A stretch of DNA of 64,000 nt, taken from Candidatus Nitronauta litoralis. Lineage in GTDB: Bacteria > Nitrospinota > Nitrospinia > Nitrospinales > Nitrospinaceae. The notes below the pieces were generated by a model that had not been told where the DNA came from, did not search any database, and was given only the letters and a program-made list of their open reading frames with translations. The DNA lies in assembly GCA_015698285.1 (NCBI GenBank), contig CP048685.1, positions 1,550,001 to 1,614,000 on the forward strand, in the 5' to 3' direction. Both the position numbers and the translations under genes were made by a program. Shown here piece after piece: positions 3,155 through 41,456 of this stretch. How positions within the stretch are numbered: the first letter of the stretch is position 1; the number at the start of each line of letters is the position of its first letter.

Positions 3155-3246
3155 GTCATCGGTGGTATAAAGGAGTCAAAGTTTTATTTGACTATTAGAT
3201 TGAAGGTTGCTGAATATTTTTTAAGTCATGCTTCGATTAGCCTCAT

Positions 3247-3705
3247 TCAAATCTCGTGGGAGAATTCAATCTCCACGGCTTCGACCTGAAACTGGTCTTT
3301 TGAATTGAGTTGAATTTTTTCTTCAGACTGGGAATCCGAGCCGTTGCTCAAAAGCAATTTAACCGCACGCAAACTTTTATCGTGTTTCAAGCGATCCCAG
3401 ATTTCACGGTGTTGTTCATGGGGCAGCACAACAATATTGGAAATATGCCAGTCGCCGTATTCCTCGAGCACCTGGGCTCGACCAACGCAATTTTCTGAAT
3501 CGTATTTCAGTTCGGGATCATCCGTGGAATCTGCCAGGCGTACTGTTCCTCCTGCCTGAGACAGGGGTTGCACTCCCCCCAGGCTGACATTGTGATTTAC
3601 ACATTTTAAACGTCCGTCCAGGATGATCCGGTTTTCTACGTGGTCGGCGCTCACCTCGGTGGACTGCCGGATGCGTTGCACTTCAAGGCTTAATACGATG
3701 TTCAT
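3247..3705 (-). CDS. Hypothetical protein, 152 residues
   Basis: I do not recognise this protein. It is soluble and acidic, with alternating hydrophobic residues suggesting beta-strands (MNIVLSLEVQRIR, NRIILDGRL, WHISNIVVLP, VEAVEIEFS), and no signal peptide or membrane segment. It has a lone NCVG motif near 76-79 but no metal-binding pattern. The ATG at 3705 has GGGAGAAG a few bases upstream. The gene lies between two zinc-ribbon proteins on the same strand, with gaps of about 50-90 bases. Confidence 0.6.
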   Translation of the reverse strand: MNIVLSLEVQRIRQSTEVSADHVENRIILDGRLKCVNHNVSLGGVQPLSQAGGTVRLADSTDDPELKYDSENCVGRAQVLEEYGDWHISNIVVLPHEQHREIWDRLKHDKSLRAVKLLLSNGSDSQSEEKIQLNSKDQFQVEAVEIEFSHEI

Positions 3706-15387: not shown

Positions 15388-15460
15388 GGGCCGTTAGCTC
15401 AACTGGTAGAGCAACTGACTCTTAATCAGTAGGTCCACGGTTCGATCCCGTGACGGCCCA
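15388..15460 (+). tRNA. tRNA-Lys (anticodon CTT)
   Basis: All four stems are readable: acceptor GGGCCGT/ACGGCCC, D arm with AGCTCAACTGGTAGAGC, anticodon arm ACTGA-CTCTTAA-TCAGT giving CTT (Lys, AAG), and T arm with GGTTCGATCCC. The length is 73 bases with discriminator A and no encoded CCA. It is the last clear host gene before the prophage. No second copy of its 3' end appears further right, so it is not shown to be an attachment site. Confidence 0.97.
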
Positions 15461-16766: not shown

Positions 16767-17432
16767 CTAAATATCTCGTGCAAACCAGACAACCCGTCCA
16801 ATTATAGTGAGCAGCTCTACCTGGTCTCCAACCGCCGTGAAAGCCTTGTACGCTGGGTTGTCTCCCTGAATGATAAGGTCTCCTGTCGGCATTTTCTGGA
16901 TTCTTTTAACCTGTAAGTTACCATCAAAATTCAATACGTACAAACCGTCTGATCTATATTCTTGAACACCTCGGTTAACCAAAATCAAATCACCATCCAA
17001 AAGGGTGGGAGTCATTGAATCGCCATCAACTTTCACAAGTACAAGGCTTTTTGGATTCAATTCCCGGCTCGCAACCCAATCCCTTTTAAAAGAGAGATAG
17101 TCAACGATTTGCTCCGAATGGATCACGCTGCCATGCCCAGCGGAAACGCTAACGTCATACCGTGGGACCCTGATAAATTCAGATGATTCTCCAAGTTTGT
17201 AATTTTCTACACCCTCTTCAATTGCGTTCTGAGGGTCTTTCCCGGTGATTATCCACTCTGGACTGATACCGTATTTTTCGCCAATAACAAACGCCCACTT
17301 GGCAGGAAACATATCACGCTTTTTTGCACCATGCACACTTGACGGATGAATGCCCAAGGCCTCAGCCAGTTGGTTATATTTTGCAATAGGCGTTGCAGAA
17401 GTGACCCTCAACCAACACTCTTTAAACGTCAT
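16767..17432 (-). CDS. Phage repressor of the CI/LexA type with an S24 peptidase domain
   Basis: The N-terminal helix-turn-helix (about 13-60, YNQLAEALGIHPSSVHGAKKR) is of the CI-repressor type. The C-terminal S24 domain has Ser139 in GDSMTP and Lys176 in LQVKRIQ, the serine-lysine dyad for self-cleavage. It should therefore be inducible by RecA after DNA damage, unlike the classic Mu c repressor. I choose ATG 17432, with AAAGG seven bases before it; a TTG at 17465 would put the start inside the operator. It is transcribed divergently from the early operon. Confidence 0.85.
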   Translation of the reverse strand: MTFKECWLRVTSATPIAKYNQLAEALGIHPSSVHGAKKRDMFPAKWAFVIGEKYGISPEWIITGKDPQNAIEEGVENYKLGESSEFIRVPRYDVSVSAGHGSVIHSEQIVDYLSFKRDWVASRELNPKSLVLVKVDGDSMTPTLLDGDLILVNRGVQEYRSDGLYVLNFDGNLQVKRIQKMPTGDLIIQGDNPAYKAFTAVGDQVELLTIIGRVVWFARDI

Positions 17433-17449
17433 TTTATGGCCTTTGTTGC

Positions 17450-17478
17450 CCTCACACCTTTTCAAAGGAGGTGTGAGG
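17450..17478. promoter_or_regulatory. Palindromic operator at the repressor start (two half-sites)
   Basis: CCTCACACC (17450-17458) and its inverse GGTGTGAGG (17470-17478) form a 9-bp dyad with 11 bases between. It lies directly upstream of the repressor ATG at 17432, suggesting negative autoregulation. Confidence 0.65.
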
Positions 17479-18156: not shown

Positions 18157-18374
18157 ATCCCCAAAAAAAATACATCAAAGAAAAACGGGACGGTCTGCAA
18201 GTTTGGTTTCACCTCAAAAAACGCGGCTACAGCATGGCGGATGTTGGCCGCGCCACAGGCAAGACCAGGTCAGCGGTTCACCAGGTAATTTATGGAAAAA
18301 GAAACTCTAAAGAAATTCTTGATTTTATAGAGTCGATTGGCGTTCCAAAAAAACATCTGGGAGTAACAAGATGA
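18153..18374 (+). CDS. Ner-like HTH regulator, 73 residues
   Basis: A small basic protein with one helix-turn-helix (about 24-55, YSMADVGRATGKTRSAVHQVIYGKR), comparable in size and place to the Ner/Nlp regulators that damp early transcription in Mu-like phages. Its start overlaps the preceding stop (ATGA) and its stop overlaps the transposase start, so translation of all three is coupled. Confidence 0.7.
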   Translation: MNPQKKYIKEKRDGLQVWFHLKKRGYSMADVGRATGKTRSAVHQVIYGKRNSKEILDFIESIGVPKKHLGVTR

Positions 18375-20524
18375 ACGCTTATCTAACTGCGGTGCAGCTT
18401 TCTTCTTTGTTGGGCATTGCAAAAAGAACGCTCCTCGCTCGATCAATCGAGGGCTCATGGCCTTACGAATTGCGTGATGGAAATGGAGGGAGAACTCGCT
18501 ACTACAAACTCACAGACCTCCCCATTTCCGTCCAGTTGCAGATCAAGAAAGCCCAATCCTCCGGATGCGACGATCCGGACGCGCCAGGCGAGAGCCTCCC
18601 TGCGGTGGCGGCAACAAAAGAGCCAAGCCAGCTCGAACTCCTCCACGCCGCCGCAGGCGAGGCGCTCCTCCCTGAATGGGCAGAAAAAAAGGCCCGTGCC
18701 CGTTTCGACCTACTCCATCAATTCCACGAACACCGGGATCGAGCCAAGCCAAAGGGCGTTAAGAAAAAAGAAGCCGATCCGCAGTTCATAGCCATGTACA
18801 AAGCGGGTGCCTGGCCCCAATTAAAAGAAGAGCTGGGCGAGGTCTCCCTTAAAACAATTTTCGCATGGATGAAAATTTTAAAAGATGCCGGGAATGATTA
18901 CCGCGCCCTCGCTCCTAAACACGGCCAGCATTTAAAAAAGAAATCACTCCTCACCCCGGAAGAAGAAAAAGAACTTTTTCTCCAACTGGAACACGAAAAC
19001 AGAGTCCCTGTATCAGAAGCAATCCGCACCACAAAAGCAATCCTTCTTTCTAAGGGAATCGAATCGCCATCATCACCGGCGACCATGCGTCGTGCGGTGA
19101 ACCGTTACAAACAATATGCATTCGATATGTGGGTACATCTCCGCGAAGGTGAAAAAGCATTCATCGATAAAGTGCTCCCCTACATTGTGAGGGATGATTC
19201 CAAACTGGAAGTGGGAGACGTCCTGGTTGGTGATGGTCATTACTGTAATTTTTTTGTGACGCACCCGTTCACCGGCAAGCAGGTGAGGCCGCTGTTAATC
19301 CTCTTTTACGACTGGCGTTCACGGTCAATGGCCGGTTGGGCGTTTTCGGTTACGGAAAATACCCAGGTAATCTCCGCAGCACTCCGCAACTCAATCATCG
19401 GGCTCGGAAAAATCCCGAAGGTCGTTTACATAGACAACGGAAAAGCCTTCCGCTCCAAATTTTTTACAGATGAAGTCTGTCCGGATTTTCATCAGTCTGG
19501 TCTCGGCGGCCTCTATCAACGCCTCGGGATCAAATGCGTATTTGCCCAACCCTACAACGCACGTGCAAAAGTAGTGGAGCGTTTTTTCAGAGACTTCGAA
19601 AAGTTTGAACGCTATATCCCAACATTTTGCGGATCATCCATCAAGGATAAACCAGCCTCCCTCATGAGAAATGAGCATCTCATGAAGAAGCTTAATAAAC
19701 GAGCGCCGCTGGAGATCAGCCAGGTGAACCGGGCATTGCAAAGCTGGTGGAGTTTTGAGGCCAATCGTCCACATCCCACAATAAAAAACGCAACCAAGGC
19801 AGAAGTGTTTGAAGCAGGCCGGGGGAATGGTGTTGATCTCAATCAACTCCACTTCTTGATGATGGATGCCCAGGTAAAAAATTTAGGCCGCAACGGAATC
19901 CGAATGTTGAACGGGGACTACTGGAACGAAGCCTTATTCGGACTGCGTTGCAAAGTTACCGTTCGTTATGACTTCAATGACATTTCAAAAATATATGTAT
20001 GGGATGAAGAGGGGGAATACCTGGGCATTGCCGAGCGACAAAAGGCCATGCACCCGATGGCCGCGCATCTGGGCACTGCAAAAGATGTTGCAGAGTTGAA
20101 GCACAAAACCAAGCAGATCAAGTCCATCAAAAAGCAAACGCAGGACCTGATTAAAAAAGCGCACGATCTTACCGGTCGCACCGCAAACGATATGCCGTGG
20201 AACAACATCATCGAGATTGCGCCGTCAACAGTCAATGCGGTTGAAAAATTCGAGAAACAAATCGAGGGCGAAAAGATAGCCGCGCAAATTCCGCAGATCA
20301 CCAGTGATGAAATCGATCTTCTGCCAGAACCGGCGCCAGAGCCGGAACCGGAAAACGTAAGGCCATTGTTTGAAACCGAAGTCGAGCATTTCTGTTGGCT
20401 TCTGGAACGGGAGGAAATGAATGCCGATGATCGCGAATTTTTTGAAGAGTACAAAAAAACCGAGATGGGCAAAACCATCCTGCAGGGCCAGCCGGAACGC
20501 GCCAAAGGAGGAGCCAATGTTTAA
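18371..20524 (+). CDS. Mu A-type DDE transposase
   Basis: The 717 residues match MuA layout: an N-terminal Mu-type DNA-binding HTH (about 5-60, LTAVQLSSLLGIAKRTLLAR), further site-binding HTH domains (about 100-240), a retroviral-integrase-fold core with D288 (GDGHYC), D355 (YIDNGKAF) and E403 (KVVERFF), and a beta-barrel plus C-terminal tail that contacts the ATPase partner. D-x66-D spacing equals that of MuA. It catalyses integration and replicative transposition. All three catalytic residues are intact, so the prophage may still move. Confidence 0.93.
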   Translation: MNAYLTAVQLSSLLGIAKRTLLARSIEGSWPYELRDGNGGRTRYYKLTDLPISVQLQIKKAQSSGCDDPDAPGESLPAVAATKEPSQLELLHAAAGEALLPEWAEKKARARFDLLHQFHEHRDRAKPKGVKKKEADPQFIAMYKAGAWPQLKEELGEVSLKTIFAWMKILKDAGNDYRALAPKHGQHLKKKSLLTPEEEKELFLQLEHENRVPVSEAIRTTKAILLSKGIESPSSPATMRRAVNRYKQYAFDMWVHLREGEKAFIDKVLPYIVRDDSKLEVGDVLVGDGHYCNFFVTHPFTGKQVRPLLILFYDWRSRSMAGWAFSVTENTQVISAALRNSIIGLGKIPKVVYIDNGKAFRSKFFTDEVCPDFHQSGLGGLYQRLGIKCVFAQPYNARAKVVERFFRDFEKFERYIPTFCGSSIKDKPASLMRNEHLMKKLNKRAPLEISQVNRALQSWWSFEANRPHPTIKNATKAEVFEAGRGNGVDLNQLHFLMMDAQVKNLGRNGIRMLNGDYWNEALFGLRCKVTVRYDFNDISKIYVWDEEGEYLGIAERQKAMHPMAAHLGTAKDVAELKHKTKQIKSIKKQTQDLIKKAHDLTGRTANDMPWNNIIEIAPSTVNAVEKFEKQIEGEKIAAQIPQITSDEIDLLPEPAPEPEPENVRPLFETEVEHFCWLLEREEMNADDREFFEEYKKTEMGKTILQGQPERAKGGANV

Positions 20525-28750: not shown

Positions 28751-29884
28751 GTGATCTATCAACCCACATCCACATTACCGGCGAACCTTTCTGGCCAGCA
28801 ATTGGCAGGGCCGTTCAACCTCATGGGTTCTATTTTAAACGCCGCAGAAAACACACCGTCAAATATCACCTTTGTTGGTGAGCGCTGCAACCTGGTCCTG
28901 GCCAGCGATCCTGATCCAACGATTATTTCCGGCCTCAAAACAGCAAACCCCAACTGCATCGTGCTGTGGTTCGTTTCCCCCTACTTCGCTACCGGCGATG
29001 ATTTGTGGAACGCCAGCACTCAGGAACTTCAAGATGCTCTGGTCGCAAAATACGGGTTGCACGACCCGCAGGATCAACCCATCACCTACGGCGGTCCCAC
29101 ATACCCAGGCCTGGCTTTGGGTCAGGCACTTCCTTTAATGGACGTGCGTAATGCCGCCTGGCAGGATTATTTCGCCGCGCAAATGGCGAAGTACGTGCCC
29201 ATTGTCGGGTTTGATGGAGTGTTTCTCGACACGATGACAGAAGATATACCGGCATGGGCGCTGGCCGCTGGCCCAACCTTCCCGAAAGGCTACACTGCCA
29301 ATGGCTGGAAGTATGGCTCCTATGAGTTCCTGGCTAAAATTCAGGACGCAATGGCGGCCATCGGTAAAGTGGTTTATTTTAATGGCATTTCAAAAGGCTC
29401 AACCGCCACCACGTCTTTCCTGAATAAGGGCATGCTGGAAATGGTCGAAGGTGGCGCGGTGGAAGCCTATAGCATCGGGTCCGATTTTTATTCCACCGAT
29501 ACGCTCAAACAACATTTTTTTCAAGAAACTGTAATGAGGGATTTGAGCCAGGCGTTATTGCTCAATAAAAAAATAGTGATCGAGGCCTACGTCGATACCT
29601 GGTCAGTAAAGAAAAGCCTGTATTTTCTCGGCGGTATTTCCCTGGTTCAAAACGGGAACCTGTTTCCGTATCTCACAGAAAACGGCTCAGCGGGAACCTT
29701 CGTCTATCTCGATGAATGGGGCATGAACCTGGGCGATCCGGTCGGAGCTTTTACGATAAACGGAGACGGTACCTACCAACGCCAGTTCACCAATGGCCTG
29801 GTAGTCGTCAACCCAACCGCCAACACCATCACCCGGCAGGTGGCGCTTGCCCCATTCTCCGGCAACTTCTTTTTAAACTCTTGA
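28751..29884 (+). CDS. Glycoside-hydrolase-like TIM-barrel protein (GHL15/GH114-like), 377 residues
   Basis: Central strands NCIVLWFVSPYF (about 70-81), VGFDGVFLDTM (about 151-161, with the acidic DG-x-FLD pattern of glycoside hydrolases) and VVYFNGISKG fit a TIM barrel of the GHL15 or endo-alpha-1,4-polygalactosaminidase type. No signal peptide is seen. GTG 28751 follows GGAGG by about nine bases. It lies in the early operon, an odd place. No other lysozyme-like gene is seen in the prophage, so it might act in host wall breakdown or adsorption. Its substrate is unknown. Confidence 0.65.
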   Translation: MIYQPTSTLPANLSGQQLAGPFNLMGSILNAAENTPSNITFVGERCNLVLASDPDPTIISGLKTANPNCIVLWFVSPYFATGDDLWNASTQELQDALVAKYGLHDPQDQPITYGGPTYPGLALGQALPLMDVRNAAWQDYFAAQMAKYVPIVGFDGVFLDTMTEDIPAWALAAGPTFPKGYTANGWKYGSYEFLAKIQDAMAAIGKVVYFNGISKGSTATTSFLNKGMLEMVEGGAVEAYSIGSDFYSTDTLKQHFFQETVMRDLSQALLLNKKIVIEAYVDTWSVKKSLYFLGGISLVQNGNLFPYLTENGSAGTFVYLDEWGMNLGDPVGAFTINGDGTYQRQFTNGLVVVNPTANTITRQVALAPFSGNFFLNS

Positions 29885-29942: not shown

Positions 29943-31286
29943 GTGATACCGAACCAACAATTGGAACTGGATTTCAACGGCCTCAAACTTATCCGGTGCG
30001 GTCGCTACCCCAATTTTAAGGATCGCCCGGACTGGCAGATCGAAGGACTATGGGCACATGCCGGTGTGGGTATGGTGACTGCCCAGGAAAAAGCAGGCAA
30101 GACCTGGTTGATGTTAACCATTGCGCTTTGTATAGCTTCAGGCACACCTTTCCTTGGGCGGTTCCCGGTTCGCCAGGGGCCAGTCATCGTCTACACACCC
30201 GAGGGCGACCGGAAAGACCTTCAGGATAGAATCGATCAACTATCCAGACGCATGGGTATTGAGTTGGCAGGGTTGGATTTTTTTACGGCAGAAATGAACG
30301 GACTCTGCATCGATTCCCCCGCCCATCAGGAAACCATCATGAATGCGATTCAGGGTGTGGGCGCAAGCCTGGTTATATTCGATCCACTGCGGGATTGTAT
30401 GGAGGGTCAACTTTCCAATAACGATGATGCCACCGTGGTCACCAAATTTTGTCTGCAAATTCAACAGGAACACAACTGCGGAGTGATGATTTCCCACCAC
30501 GAAAATTCAGACGGGAAAATGATGGGAGCCAAAGCCTGGTCCGCCTTTGCCGATTCACTCTGGCACCTGCGTGTCGCGGATGGTGATCAAACCATCTTGT
30601 CAAATATCCAGCGAAAAGAGAAAACAGTAGAAGATTTACAAATAGCCAGAGTCAAAATGGATGACGATATCGGTCTTGAAATTGTCGGAAACAGCCAGCC
30701 ATCCAAAACCCTGGACGACCATATTCTGGACCTGCTCACGAAACTCCCTAAGGGGTCATCCATGACCGTCACAAATATCCGGGAAAATTTACGTAGAAAC
30801 AACATTTCTGCCCCCAACGAAAAGGTGTCCACCTCCGTGGGTCGGTTGAAATTCCACAAGGAAATTGTGCTGACACCGCCTTACGGGTACCGTTTGGCAA
30901 CCCCGGAAGATTTTGCTCAAAAATCGGGCGAAAAGCCGTCCGTCCGTGAGGGGGTCCCTGAAAATCAGACGGACGGGACGGGAGTTAATGTTAAAAATGA
31001 GGGTAAAAACTCGTCCCGTCCGTCCAAATCCCAGTGGCCGGGTGACGGACGGACGGGTTTTGAGGGTCAAAATGGTCCGGAACCCGTCCAGGCCACCCCT
31101 CCTGCCACCACCGGCCTTCCAGACCTCCAAAAGGCCCATGAGGGGGCGGACTATATATATGGAAACAACTCGCAAAATACTCCCCCTTGTAAAGGGGGTT
31201 GGGGGGATTATTCCGAAAATGCCCTCAAAAACCGCCTTTATGAGGCAGGGTTCGACCACACCGATATTGAAGGAATGTCCGAGTGA
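29943..31286 (+). CDS. RecA-fold ATPase/replicative helicase-like protein, 447 residues
   Basis: Walker A QEKAGKTW (about 48-55) and Walker B SLVIFDPL (about 140-148), with MISHHENSDG and a C-terminal HTH-like part (about 255-310), match the RepA/DnaB-like AAA_25 hexameric ATPases. The tail after about 330 is low-complexity, rich in Arg-Pro-Ser repeats encoded by ACGGACGGG-type DNA, and includes a palindromic-repeat peptide (NTPPCKGGWGDY). Mu itself uses host DnaB, so an encoded helicase is notable. GTG 29943 is the start. The stop overlaps the next start. Confidence 0.75.
   Translation: MIPNQQLELDFNGLKLIRCGRYPNFKDRPDWQIEGLWAHAGVGMVTAQEKAGKTWLMLTIALCIASGTPFLGRFPVRQGPVIVYTPEGDRKDLQDRIDQLSRRMGIELAGLDFFTAEMNGLCIDSPAHQETIMNAIQGVGASLVIFDPLRDCMEGQLSNNDDATVVTKFCLQIQQEHNCGVMISHHENSDGKMMGAKAWSAFADSLWHLRVADGDQTILSNIQRKEKTVEDLQIARVKMDDDIGLEIVGNSQPSKTLDDHILDLLTKLPKGSSMTVTNIRENLRRNNISAPNEKVSTSVGRLKFHKEIVLTPPYGYRLATPEDFAQKSGEKPSVREGVPENQTDGTGVNVKNEGKNSSRPSKSQWPGDGRTGFEGQNGPEPVQATPPATTGLPDLQKAHEGADYIYGNNSQNTPPCKGGWGDYSENALKNRLYEAGFDHTDIEGMSE
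30940..31100 (+). repeat. Inverted-repeat-rich coding segment (GACGGACGG motifs)
   Basis: At least five copies of CGTCCGTC/GACGGACG in both orientations occur within about 160 bases of the helicase gene's linker. They can form several hairpins. The encoded stretch is a low-complexity Arg/Pro/Ser/Gly linker. Confidence 0.6.
31181..31212. repeat. Palindromic repeat C, in frame inside the helicase-like gene
   Basis: CCCCCTTGTAAAGGGGG (31182-31198) followed by TTGGGGGGATTATT. It encodes PPCKGGWGDY near the C-terminus. Confidence 0.8.
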
Positions 31287-31606
31287 GATTTGAACCGTGG
31301 ATGAAGGAAATTGAAATTAATGACCTCCCCGAGGTCTATCAAGGGTTGGCCGAGAAAATCGGTCTGGAGCACACCCTGATCGTCATGCGCACTTTTGATG
31401 GCGAGCAGAAGTATTTCCGTCGTGTCAAAACCAGCATGACCCACGTGCGGGACCGCGTCATGTTCAGAAATTGGAACGGATACAACGAGAGTGATCTGGC
31501 AGAAGAGTTCGACCTCACTACAAGAATGGTGCAGATCATTTTGGGAAAATTTATGGTAAAAGAATGTAGGTCGAATCCAAGGCAGGAGAGTTTGTATGAT
31601 GAATAA
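31283..31606 (+). CDS. mor: Mor-type middle-operon transcription activator
   Basis: LPEVYQGLAEKIGLEHTLIVMRTFDGEQKYF (about 14-44) is the dimerisation part and WNGYNESDLAEEFDLTTRMVQIIL (about 65-88) the helix-turn-helix of the Mor/C family. Mor activates the middle promoter of Mu. It is the penultimate gene before the long leader and late genes. GTG 31283 is the start, overlapping the helicase stop. It has 107 residues, somewhat shorter than Mu Mor. Confidence 0.8.
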   Translation: MRFEPWMKEIEINDLPEVYQGLAEKIGLEHTLIVMRTFDGEQKYFRRVKTSMTHVRDRVMFRNWNGYNESDLAEEFDLTTRMVQIILGKFMVKECRSNPRQESLYDE

Positions 31607-31838
31607 AGAAAACGAAATAACAGGACCATTCATAAAAAAAATAGAAAGTAAAAAAAGAAATTATCGAGATTTCGAGGGATTGAATATTAAGATGCGCGCA
31701 ATATCAAAATCCTTTGTTGGTTTTACTTCTGTCTGCGCTGTCAATCCCAGAGTGATTTCAAAATTTATTTCTACCTATCAAAGCCTCACCCCTGCGCAAA
31801 AAGCCGCCCTGGCTTTAGAGGATAAAGAAAACAACTAA
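31596..31838 (+). CDS. Hypothetical basic protein, 80 residues
   Basis: Basic, with IKKIESKKRNYRDFEG and a helical C-terminus (FISTYQSLTPAQKAALALEDKE). It overlaps the mor end by 11 bases. No recognised family; it may assist Mor or be the last middle gene. A long structured region follows. Confidence 0.5.
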   Translation: MMNKENEITGPFIKKIESKKRNYRDFEGLNIKMRAISKSFVGFTSVCAVNPRVISKFISTYQSLTPAQKAALALEDKENN

Positions 31839-31860
31839 TCCCCTTCACGTATACCCCGTC

Positions 31861-31922
31861 GTTCTTCCGCGAAATATTTCGTAGAACCCCTTCACCAGAC
31901 TATTCCCGTCTAACAAGATAAT
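31861..31922 (+). promoter_or_regulatory. Possible Mor-activated promoter: dyad plus -10 box
   Basis: A perfect 12-base palindrome CGAAATATTTCG (31870-31881), flanked by GTTCT and AGAAC, sits about 50 bases upstream of the expected start of transcription for the -10 box GATAAT (31917-31922). No -35 TTGACA is present at the right distance. Mor-dependent promoters likewise lack a good -35 and carry a dyad there. The spacing is about one helical turn further than in Mu, so this is tentative. Confidence 0.45.
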
Positions 31923-31951
31923 CTGCGTTCACTTTTGATTTGGAGCGCGGG

Positions 31952-32176
31952 TATGAACGGGAACCAACTAATCCACCCCAGCGAAGACTTTGCGAAAACC
32001 CTTCCCACGCCGTGGGCCGTTGCGCTGTGCGCTTCGGCCTGCGGTCCTACCCGACCGAACAAAGCAAGGCCGCTGAAACTCAGGTGAACATATGAATCAT
32101 GTGTAACTAACACACCAAGGCCCGAAAGGGCGAGGCCGTGAAGCGCGTGGAGGACCGGGGTTTCCCCGGTCCTCCC
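31952..32176 (+). ncRNA. Candidate structured leader RNA before the late operon
   Basis: Stacked hairpins are visible: CCCAC/GTGGG (32004-32016); GGCCG-TT-GCGC...GCGC-TT-CGGCC (32015-32039, with a symmetrical U-U bulge); CGGTC/GACCG after it; TGTGT/ACACA (about 32100-32114); GCCC-GAAA-GGGC, a GNRA tetraloop (about 32120-32131); and a perfect 12-bp stem GGAGGACCGGGG/CCCCGGTCCTCC (32149-32175). Density and precision of pairing exceed what coding or random DNA gives. A 44-codon frame beginning ATG 31952 overlaps it. No T-tract follows the last stem. Confidence 0.55.
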
Positions 32177-32205
32177 TTGATAAACCAGAAAAGGAATTTT
32201 CCTCT

Positions 32206-32577
32206 ATGAAATTTTTAATAACAATTCTGATCAGTCTGGTGCTTGCCGGGTGCTCGACATTTTCAACCGTGCCTACCGAGGCAATGTCCGCCGCGAAATT
32301 GGAAATGGTTCATGTAGATGGCCAGAAAGAAACCAGCCTGAACTACTCCAACCCTAAGAGTGTGGGGGGTGAATTCACAGGCCACGCCTGGGTGAAGATC
32401 GATCCGGTCACTGGAAAGGTGGATATGGGCGTTAAGGGCGGAGCCCAGGGCGGAACCGACGTTGATCTGTCTCACGCAGTCGAACACGCCAGGGTTCAGT
32501 CCGAGACCATTAGAGACGGCCTCAAAACCATGCGGGGTTTGGCGGAAAAATTTCCGGGATTGGCGGGGGGATTATGA
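32206..32577 (+). CDS. Phage lipoprotein, 123 residues
   Basis: Signal peptide with lipobox LAGC (Cys about 16). The mature part is polar with a Gly-rich centre (VKGGAQGGTDVD) and a C-terminal helix. A lysis-related (outer-membrane spanin-like) or host-surface (superinfection exclusion) role would fit its place at the head of the late operon, but no catalytic motif is present. The AAGGAATTTTCCT palindrome overlaps its ribosome site, so translation could be controlled by structure. Confidence 0.65.
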   Translation: MKFLITILISLVLAGCSTFSTVPTEAMSAAKLEMVHVDGQKETSLNYSNPKSVGGEFTGHAWVKIDPVTGKVDMGVKGGAQGGTDVDLSHAVEHARVQSETIRDGLKTMRGLAEKFPGLAGGL

Positions 32578-32900
32578 GTCTTGAACTTTGGCAGGTGATC
32601 TCGTTTGTGCTGGCCGCTCTGCTCAGCGGCCTGGGGTTCATGGTGCGGCAGGCGTTCAATCAATTGAAAAATGATGTCGATTCTCTGCGCGGCGAAATCC
32701 GGTCTATTTATGTTGAGCAAAGCGAAGGACGCGAAAAAATGTATCGGGAATTCGTGGCGAAAGAAGACCACCACATCTACATCGGAAAAATGGAGGGTCT
32801 ATTCTCTACCGTTTTTCGCGACCTCAAAAACCTGACGGCAACGTTGAATCAAACCATCGGGCAGTTGAATTATTCAAGGGAACAAAAGCGAAATGATTAA
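32574..32900 (+). CDS. Phage membrane protein, possible holin/DUF2730-like, 108 residues
   Basis: One transmembrane segment (about 6-26, WQVISFVLAALLSGLGFMV) followed by a long charged coiled-coil (about 30-100). This layout is that of the DUF2730-like proteins placed before the terminase in Mu-type phages and also of some type III holins. It overlaps the lipoprotein stop by four bases. Name and role are inferred. Confidence 0.65.
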   Translation: MSLELWQVISFVLAALLSGLGFMVRQAFNQLKNDVDSLRGEIRSIYVEQSEGREKMYREFVAKEDHHIYIGKMEGLFSTVFRDLKNLTATLNQTIGQLNYSREQKRND

Positions 32901-33195
32901 TCCAGGCATGGCAGAAGTGATTCGAGGGCAGGTGCTGGAACTGCTGTCAACAGATTTTGACGGCAAATTGTCATCCAGGGTTTTATTGCTGATGCTCAAT
33001 CAGGCGGGGCACTCCCTCACCAAGGCGGATGTGTCATCAATCCTTCGGTATCTCGCAGGCGCAGGCAAAGAACTGATCGATTTTAAAAAGCACGATAACG
33101 AAACCTGGTACGCAATGCTCCTGCCAAAAGGCCGGGACCTGTTGGAAGGCCGAATCGAAGTGACAGGCGTTATGTGCCCTTACTGCGGGGACTGA
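32893..33195 (+). CDS. Phage helical protein, 100 residues (gp26-like position)
   Basis: Helical protein (EVIRGQVLELLSTDF, LSSRVLLLMLNQAGHSLTKADVSSILRYLAG) with winged-helix-like features and a C-terminal CPYCGD knuckle. It lies at the place of the gp26-type proteins preceding the small terminase in Mu-like phages. The start overlaps the previous stop. No detailed function is known. Confidence 0.6.
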   Translation: MINPGMAEVIRGQVLELLSTDFDGKLSSRVLLLMLNQAGHSLTKADVSSILRYLAGAGKELIDFKKHDNETWYAMLLPKGRDLLEGRIEVTGVMCPYCGD

Positions 33196-35247: not shown

Positions 35248-36845
35248 TGATATCCCTGTTTGATCAATTCAATCGAGAAATTAAGCCGGAGAAAAAACCG
35301 GAACAAGATATCGTATCGACTGCCACCATCTACGATAACGAACCCGGATTTCAATCAGCAGGACTGACCCCATTAAGGCTGGGCAATATATTGCGCGAAG
35401 CAACTCTTGGTGAGCCGCTTCGTGCGATGGAGCTGTTTGAGGAATTTGAGGAAAAAGACACGCACCTGTTGAGTGTTCTTTCAAAAAGGCGTGGCAGAAT
35501 CTCAGGGCTCAATTACAAAGTTGAACCCGCATCACAGGATAAAAAGGATCTTGAGATTGCAGAATTTATTCTCGAAGTCATTGAGGGTCTCCCTGATTTT
35601 GAGGACAACATAAAAGACATCACAGATGCCATTGGCAAAGGGTATGCCGGTCTCGAATTGTGCTGGGACCTTCAGGGGTCTCGGCATGTTGTTAAAAATA
35701 TGATCCGGGTTGAGCCCAGGCGGTTCATGTGGCGCAAGCTATCGAATCCTCCACGTCTCCTTACTGATTCCGATTCTGTTGAAGGGGTCGAATTAAAGCC
35801 CTTCAAGTTTTTATTCCACGTTCACAAAACAAAATCAGGCCATGCGACCCGGCAGGGTTTACTGCGAGTTTGTAGCTGGATGTACCTGTTTAAAAATTTC
35901 GGTGTGCGCGATTGGGTGAAATTCGCCGAAGGCTATGGGATGCCCATGCGTATCGGCAAGTATCCATCAGGCGCAAAGAAAGATGAAAAGGATCAGTTGA
36001 TTGCGGCTCTTAGGTATCTGGCTTCGGACGCTGCCGCGATCATCCCGGAAGGCGCGGCTATCGAACTCATAGAGGCAACACAAAAAGCTGGCAGCGATCC
36101 GTACAAGCCTCTTGCTGATTTTGCTAATGCAGAAATTTCAAAAGCAGTACTCGGTCAAACCCTCACCACCGAGCAGGGCGATAAAGGTTCCCGGTCGCTG
36201 GGCACCGTTCATGAAAACACTGAAGATGATTTGCAAAAAGACGACTGTGAACAGGTTTCAAAATCCATTCGCCGCGATTTTATCCGGCCCCTGGTCGGGT
36301 TCAATTTTGGCTGGGATGTCCCCCTGCCCTGGATTCATTTTGAGTATGAGAGTGAAGAGGACCTGCTGGCAGAAGCGCAGCGCTATAAGACGCATCTTGA
36401 AAGTGGTGTTGAAATTCCAGCAAATCATTATTACGAGAAATTTAAAATCCCGAAACCGGAAAAGGGTGAAGAGGTTTTGGGCGGTCGGTCACCAGTTGAG
36501 CAGGGCCGCAAGGAAGAACCGGAAGAAGAGGCTCAGGAGGATGCCGAAGAAAGCGCATCAAAGGAGCAATTCTATTCCGCAACAGAACAGCCTGAAACCG
36601 ATGACAACCTTCAGGGTTTCCTCGACCGGCTTTTAAAAGAAGCAGGGCAGGAATCGCTCATTGACCCTGTGCAGGATTTGCTTTTGTCCTCCAAATCCCT
36701 GGAAGAGTTTCGCGATGGGCTTCTCGATTTGTATACAGAAATTCCTGTGGATCAAATGGGTGCGGTCATTCAGAAAGCTTTTGAGTCATCGGAATTGCTT
36801 GGGCGGTTTGAGTCGCTTCCGGATGATGAAAAGGAGGATGCCTGA
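35247..36845 (+). CDS. Portal protein (DUF935, Mu gp29)
   Basis: The 532 residues have the DUF935 pattern: ELFEEFEEKDTHLLSVLSKRR (about 60-80), FLFHVHKTKSGHATRQGLLRVCSWMYLFKNF (about 190-220), GKYPSGAKKDEKDQL, and LGQTLTTEQGDKGSRSLGTVHE (about 300-321). The C-terminus is acidic. It forms the dodecameric DNA gate. The start shares one base with the terminase stop, and the stop shares one base with the next start. Confidence 0.88.
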   Translation: MISLFDQFNREIKPEKKPEQDIVSTATIYDNEPGFQSAGLTPLRLGNILREATLGEPLRAMELFEEFEEKDTHLLSVLSKRRGRISGLNYKVEPASQDKKDLEIAEFILEVIEGLPDFEDNIKDITDAIGKGYAGLELCWDLQGSRHVVKNMIRVEPRRFMWRKLSNPPRLLTDSDSVEGVELKPFKFLFHVHKTKSGHATRQGLLRVCSWMYLFKNFGVRDWVKFAEGYGMPMRIGKYPSGAKKDEKDQLIAALRYLASDAAAIIPEGAAIELIEATQKAGSDPYKPLADFANAEISKAVLGQTLTTEQGDKGSRSLGTVHENTEDDLQKDDCEQVSKSIRRDFIRPLVGFNFGWDVPLPWIHFEYESEEDLLAEAQRYKTHLESGVEIPANHYYEKFKIPKPEKGEEVLGGRSPVEQGRKEEPEEEAQEDAEESASKEQFYSATEQPETDDNLQGFLDRLLKEAGQESLIDPVQDLLLSSKSLEEFRDGLLDLYTEIPVDQMGAVIQKAFESSELLGRFESLPDDEKEDA

Positions 36846-38062
36846 TGCCCTTGCAGTTCACCCAGCTTCCCTTTGAAGAAGCCATCCGGTTCATGCGCGA
36901 TAAGGTCCGCCTGCCAACTCGCGACTGGCGTGGTATTGAGCGCGGTATGCATTCCCGCGCCTTTGTGGTGGCAGGGGCCATGAAAAGTGAATTGCTTGCT
37001 GATTTCCATGAAGAGGTAACTAAAGCCATAGCGAATGGAACAACGGTGGCCGACTTTAAAAAGCAGTTCAATTCCATCGTTCAAAAACACGGTTGGACTT
37101 ACCAGGGAAAACCGGGATGGCGGGCTGCTTTGATCTACAACACCAACATGCGCACCGCCCACGCGGCAGGTGCAGAAGCGCAGATGCAACGCACTAAAGC
37201 GCGAAGGCCCTATGCCCGATACATCGCCGGACTTTCAGTTGAGCCCAGGCCGGAACATCTTGAATGGCACAACACCGTTTTGCCGCTCGATCACCCCTGG
37301 TGGCACACCCACACCCCGCCCAATGATTGGGGCTGCAAGTGCAAAAAAGTTTCGGTGTCAAAACGTGAAGCGGAACGCGATGGCTTGCAAATTTTAGACG
37401 ACGCGCCAAGAAACGGGACCTACAAATGGAAAGATCCCCGCACCGGTAAAGAGCACACCTTCCCCAGCGGCATCGGCAAATTTTGGGACTACAATCCAGG
37501 TCGCGCCGCCTGGGGACAGGTAGAAACAAAACGCCTGGCAGATGGCGCCGCTACAGCGAAATGGAAATCATTGGATGATCGCGGTCCAGATGATTGGGAT
37601 CGGTCAGCCGTGGTGCCGGTAGATGCTGTGAAAAAAAGCGAAGGCCCTCACGCAAAAAAAACGGGAGACGTGCGAACTCTTTTGAGGGATGCAGTGGGCG
37701 GTGATGACGTGACATTTAAGGACCCTTACGGGGATTTTGTAAATGTCAACCAGGGAATAGCGGATCACATCCTGGAAGCACCGGATAAGCGTGTTGATGG
37801 ACGCGAGAGGTTTTTCCCCATGATTCAGGAAACCATAGAAGATCCGTATGAAATCTGGGTGCAGTTTGCGCGCAACGAATCAACCGGAAAAGTCGAACTC
37901 AGAAAACGCTACGCAAAAATGGTCCATTTGGATAAGAAGCGGACTCTCGGATTGATCGCCCAAGTTCACAATGGAAAGTGGATCGGGTTTGATTTTTTTC
38001 GCGGGTCAAAGTCTGCGATGAAACGATTAAGGGCGGGAATGTTGATCTGGGGGAGGGAATGA
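36845..38062 (+). CDS. gpF-type head morphogenesis protein fused to a PBECR2-like nuclease domain
   Basis: Residues about 1-215 match the SPP1 gp7/Mu gpF head-morphogenesis domain, ending HPWWHTHTPPNDWGCKC. Residues about 270-400 resemble the phage Barnase-EndoU-ColicinE5/D-RelE-like nuclease 2 (PBECR2) domain: FKDPYGDFVNVNQGIADHIL with H308, FFPMIQETIEDPYEIW, then LRKRYAKMV and WIGFDFFRGSKSAMKRLRAG. PBECR domains are proposed effector nucleases injected with the phage. The assignment of the tail is from memory of the pattern. Confidence 0.8.
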   Translation: MPLQFTQLPFEEAIRFMRDKVRLPTRDWRGIERGMHSRAFVVAGAMKSELLADFHEEVTKAIANGTTVADFKKQFNSIVQKHGWTYQGKPGWRAALIYNTNMRTAHAAGAEAQMQRTKARRPYARYIAGLSVEPRPEHLEWHNTVLPLDHPWWHTHTPPNDWGCKCKKVSVSKREAERDGLQILDDAPRNGTYKWKDPRTGKEHTFPSGIGKFWDYNPGRAAWGQVETKRLADGAATAKWKSLDDRGPDDWDRSAVVPVDAVKKSEGPHAKKTGDVRTLLRDAVGGDDVTFKDPYGDFVNVNQGIADHILEAPDKRVDGRERFFPMIQETIEDPYEIWVQFARNESTGKVELRKRYAKMVHLDKKRTLGLIAQVHNGKWIGFDFFRGSKSAMKRLRAGMLIWGRE

Positions 38063-41423: not shown

Positions 41424-41456
41424 ATGCCGGGGTTATCTAACCGTTAACCCCGGCAT
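41424..41456 (+). terminator. Strong hairpin after the major capsid gene
   Basis: ATGCCGGGGTTA (41424-41435) pairs perfectly with TAACCCCGGCAT (41445-41456), a 12-bp stem with a nine-base loop, followed by TTATAAAAAT. It would partly end transcription and raise the ratio of capsid mRNA. Confidence 0.7.

Follow-up and report, generated by a model that had tools for sequence, protein, structure and literature searches.

The window analysed here, a 64-kb stretch of DNA within a 3.92-Mb single-contig genome, contains a Mu-like prophage that encodes a transposase, a Mor/C-family activator, gp27, and gpT. Genes for protease I and a terminase are also present, and the host is most likely a member of the Nitrospinota. 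The Mor gene is followed by a hairpin-rich stretch of 225 bases (31952-32176), with the Mu-type structural genes directly downstream (Table 1). The first of these late genes, preceded by an AAAGGAA Shine-Dalgarno sequence at 32190-32196, encodes a protein that matched no family and, used as a query, retrieved no relative among viral contigs or phages. Elsewhere in the prophage, a hypothetical glycosyl hydrolase (GHL15, PF14885) is encoded in the early/middle part at 28751-29884, and the Mu F-like head protein (36845-38062) carries its nuclease-like PBECR2 domain (PF18810) at the C-terminus.

Table 1. Genes, RNA structures, and putative promoter elements of the prophage, in window coordinates.
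Feature	Position	Strand	Remarks
CI/S24 repressor gene	16767-17465		
Mu transposase gene	18371-20524		
Mor/C-family transcription activator gene	31283..31606	+	Pfam PF08765 Mor, 37.7 bits, above cut-off; phrog_532 late transcriptional activator
Putative activator site, two TTCNNNGAA units 13 bp apart	31865..31886	+	Inner dyad centred at 31875.5; read from the sequence
Putative -10 (TAATCT) of late promoter	31919..31924	+	No -35; fixed 43.5-bp distance from dyad centre
44-codon open frame	31953..32087	+	GGAG Shine-Dalgarno 7 nt upstream of ATG
Symmetrical hairpin GGCCG-UU-GCGC-UGU-GCGC-UU-CGGCC	32015..32039	+	UU/UU internal loop; pair probability 0.93-0.94
Alternative multi-branch fold	32027..32148	+	Closed by GCGCUUC..GGCC / GGCC..GAAGCGC; sub-region z -3.36
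Hairpin ACAUAUG-AAU-CAUGUGU	32088..32104	+	Pair probability about 0.9
GAAA-capped hairpin GCCC-GAAA-GGGC	32120..32131	+	Pair probability about 0.9
Perfect 12-bp hairpin GGAGGACCGGGG-UUU-CCCCGGUCCUCC	32149..32175	+	UUU loop; no U-tract after the stem
First late-operon gene, putative lipoprotein	32206..32577	+	Signal peptide with lipobox LAGC, read from the sequence
gp27 gene	33174		
Terminase gene	33751		
Mu F gene with PBECR2 domain	36845		

The initial annotation had singled out a perfect 12-bp stem, a stem with a UU internal loop, and a GAAA-capped stem in this stretch, and all three are present in the sequence at the positions listed in Table 1. Ten of the 12 pairs in the perfect stem are G-C, and the hairpin ends 14 nt 5' of the Shine-Dalgarno sequence of the first late gene. 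With loops of 3-10, no perfect stem in the 64 kb is longer, and one hairpin, at 41424-41456, equals it. That second perfect 12-bp hairpin (ATGCCGGGGTTA..TAACCCCGGCAT) directly follows the major head gene gpT, has no clear U-tract, and is separated from the next gene by about 30 nt. The 225-base stretch has two alternative folds, which differ by at most about 3 kcal/mol.

As a whole, the stretch folds with a z of -3.6, and none of 200 shuffles was as good. When the same DNA is tiled into about 284 windows, it ranks about third, so the earlier impression that it differs from its surroundings comes close but does not strictly hold. Segment 31978-32147, which leaves out the 12-bp hairpin, reached a z of only -1.95, so that this single hairpin supplies much of the excess, although the sub-region 32027-32148 gives -3.36. 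Folding is also good on the minus strand (z -2.9), as is bound to be the case with inverted repeats. For a wider comparison, we used loci with a Mor gene and set the first gap after Mor against the other gaps of the same loci, which were called by a simple open-frame rule and are in some cases not truly non-coding; values below -3 occurred in 8 of 29 first gaps and 16 of 96 other gaps (P=0.15). On this basis we rejected the idea of a special degree of structure in the Mor-to-late slot of Mu-like phages. Since strong hairpins are common between the genes of these phages, the claim that this stretch is exceptional loses weight: the structural part by itself does not stand out among phage intergenic regions, and the hairpin-rich feature is probably fairly ordinary.

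Upstream of the hairpins lies a composite module consisting of a GAA..TTC dyad followed by TA(A/G)TCT 43.5 bp from the dyad centre. In the window and in a sibling locus, L210, the dyad forms part of two TTCN(1-3)GAA units spaced 13 bp apart. The module occurs once in the window, at 31871-31924; across about 2.1 Mb of loci, with both strands searched, it recurs only at the homologous slot of L021, L026, and L210 and, on the minus strand, once in L104. Because the pattern was drawn up from sequences already in view, this recurrence is no more than suggestive. No sigma-70 two-hexamer (-35/-10) site was recognised within 31000-33000. A dyad and -10 had been placed after the hairpins in the initial annotation; the likely pair probably lies upstream of them instead, at 31865-31924. 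A phage-encoded Mor/C-family activator, as expected for a Mu-type promoter, is present; the putative dyad and putative -10, for which no -35 was recognised, are common to the siblings. The module is likely a Mor-activated late promoter, and we infer both its use and a transcript start near 31931. Flanking the inferred promoter, at 31829-31841 and 31962-31974, are two nearly identical 13-nt direct repeats (AAACAACTAATCC / AACCAACTAATCC), which may be due to chance.

The arrangement resembles the middle and late promoters of Mu (Pm and Plys, served by Mor and C) in that a Mor-family gene precedes the late operon and a putative dyad is followed by a putative -10 that lacks a -35. The dyad of Mu Pm is centred at -43.5 (PMC4287176), whereas a centre at that position was not seen here: with TAATCT as the -10, it falls at about -55.5, about 12 bp further upstream. 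The present dyad also differs from those of Pm and Plys in carrying the repeated TTCN(1-3)GAA, and is followed by about 275 nt of hairpin-rich leader. This inferred leader, taken as a whole, has a fold z of -3.58.

Sibling loci were gathered by related terminases. Our search of the phylum yielded three prophage relatives in two genomes; their identities match those of L021, L026, and L025, which are prophages of Nitrospinaceae MAGs, and the assignment of the host to the Nitrospinota derives from this match. L021 and L026 share a non-coding slot before the late genes with 82-85% identity over 3241-3360, a level matching that of good coding genes, and the slot folds well in both (z -3.45 and -3.57). 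The third sibling, L210, was found by motif; its leader is weakly structured (z -1.54), and the 9-bp closing stem predicted for L021 and L026 is not kept there. The promoter-like module (GAA..TTC dyad, CGCGCGCG, TARTCTG) is located at 3237-3291 in L021, 3155-3209 in L026, and 4933-4987 in L210, and a conserved hairpin loop, GGGACTCGCAACC, precedes the late genes in all three. These leaders share with the window the gene slot, the dyad/-10 module, and hairpins before the first late gene, but have no significant sequence similarity to its hairpin region. A structural model built from L021 and L026 (R1) fits both well and does not fit the window; elsewhere it gave weak stray matches. The closest Mor (45%) is encoded by L110, where the corresponding gap has a z of -3.5 over its whole length and -1.04 over its last 225 nt. 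An alignment of the window with L110 (p 0.01-0.03) was set aside, as by our reading it lies in a short L110 open frame. At about 3560-3660, L110 contains a short unannotated frame, ending IVFHAIGWALGAWICN, that appears to encode a small membrane protein where the late operon begins.

Searches for relatives of the hairpin region itself were negative. No Rfam family exceeded its gathering threshold in the stretch, and nothing credible emerged at a relaxed threshold; over the window, the sole Rfam match was a tRNA at 15388. A tRNA or tmRNA identity was discarded, with only a tRNA-Lys found and that lying elsewhere. We detected no other copy in the same genome or in relatives, no relative in phage data, none among viral contigs by exact motif, and only short coding matches in plasmids. 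A single-sequence structural model matched only itself across 70 loci and 77 genomes of the phylum. Short DNA matches in genomes G077 and G041 were inspected and judged to be chance, and the likeness of GUGAAGCGCGUGGA to GUGAAAGCGCGCUGGA of L021 is not significant. The open-access literature, with few subscription papers covered, yielded nothing relevant on structured leaders of late transcripts in Mu-like phages, or on phages of this type in Nitrospina.

Given the likely Mor-activated promoter upstream, the hairpins probably belong to the 5' leader of the late mRNA. We give about an even chance to the reading that the stretch is a structured 5' untranslated leader of the prophage's late (structural-gene) transcript, which fits best because the shared promoter-like module adjoins it upstream and the first late gene lies directly downstream. 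Also in its favour are the fold z, the nearby Mor gene, the conserved and well-folding slot of L021 and L026, the missing U-tract, and a 44-codon frame that looks non-coding. Counting against it are the failure to find a homologue, the common occurrence of structured gaps, the weak folding of L210, the sibling model that misses the window, the displaced dyad, and the post hoc module. Of the functions offered in the initial annotation, a leader riboregulator before the late operon fits best, with its regulatory role putative, and an antitermination RNA gained no positive support.

Under the leader reading, the Mor-type activator encoded just upstream would bind the dyad, late transcription would begin at the inferred start, and the leader would fold into local hairpins, the last being the 12-bp stem before the ribosome site. 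These hairpins, chiefly the last, could form a cis-acting 5' barrier that guards the long late transcript against 5'-end-dependent decay and prevents upstream RNA from base-pairing to the ribosome site. Such a protective or stabilising role, suggested by position alone, is tentative and on balance somewhat unlikely. The ompA leader is an example of a 5' stabilising stem-loop. The hairpin in the window likewise lies in an untranslated leader close before the ribosome site, but it is not at the extreme 5' end, and its stabilising effect is putative.

Behind a protective or insulating leader, we rank as rivals a terminator, a switching leader, a small RNA, and a small gene. According to the first, early/middle transcription would stop short of the late operon at the 12-bp hairpin, an intrinsic-type terminator or attenuator, and the remainder would be spacer. 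Like intrinsic (Rho-independent) terminators, the hairpin lies between transcription units and has a short loop on a strong, GC-rich stem; it comes after the Mor gene, as do clear terminators in L023 and L028, and the major head gene is followed by a comparable long, U-poor hairpin (41424-41456). However, no U-tract lies directly 3' of the stem (tail CTTGATAAACCAGA); elsewhere in the window, the hairpin at 17450-17478 does have such a tract, in contrast to the tail CTTGATAAACC here, and our terminator scan did not call the 12-bp hairpin. Moreover, it sits downstream of the inferred promoter and only 30 nt before the next start codon, which implies that the late promoter is upstream and that late RNA crosses the hairpin. 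A terminator is unlikely.

A regulated leader, in which two competing folds switch late expression and are possibly set by translation of the 44-codon frame, draws on the small energy difference between the folds, on the frame, which is preceded by a Shine-Dalgarno sequence and itself overlaps one arm, and on the ability of CGGUCCU (32042-32048), as read from the sequence, to pair with AGGACCG of the last hairpin. Near-equal folds are nevertheless common in GC-rich RNA, the local 12-bp stem should outcompete upstream pairing, and no homologue was found, so we consider this reading quite improbable. The more specific version, an undescribed bistable leader RNA that gates late transcription or translation with the translated leader frame picking the fold, is more doubtful still.

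The compact multi-hairpin fold and strong 3' hairpin would suit an independent small RNA with its gene between the operons. This earlier suggestion found no positive support: the stretch has no recognised sigma-70 promoter of its own, no U-tract or canonical terminator, no second copy in the genome or phylum, and no Rfam match, making a small RNA very improbable. Least likely of all is that the 44-codon frame encodes a short protein and that the folding is a by-product of GC content; a GGAG precedes the ATG, but the frame has no family or convincing relative, and its codon score of -0.13 per codon, noisy at this length, falls in the off-frame range, below the 5th percentile of real genes. The alternative raised initially, that the frame is a gene, finds no support in a comparison with the codon usage of the prophage genes; it is probably not one, although a leader peptide is possible. 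A phrog_23800 match to a 51-codon frame (E 0.0077) was discarded as low-complexity, since it matches unrelated places too.

A functional leader would mean that transposable phages in a little-studied phylum of nitrite oxidisers control or protect their late mRNA by means of a structured leader. The shared dyad/-10 module, in turn, offers a testable late promoter for these phages.
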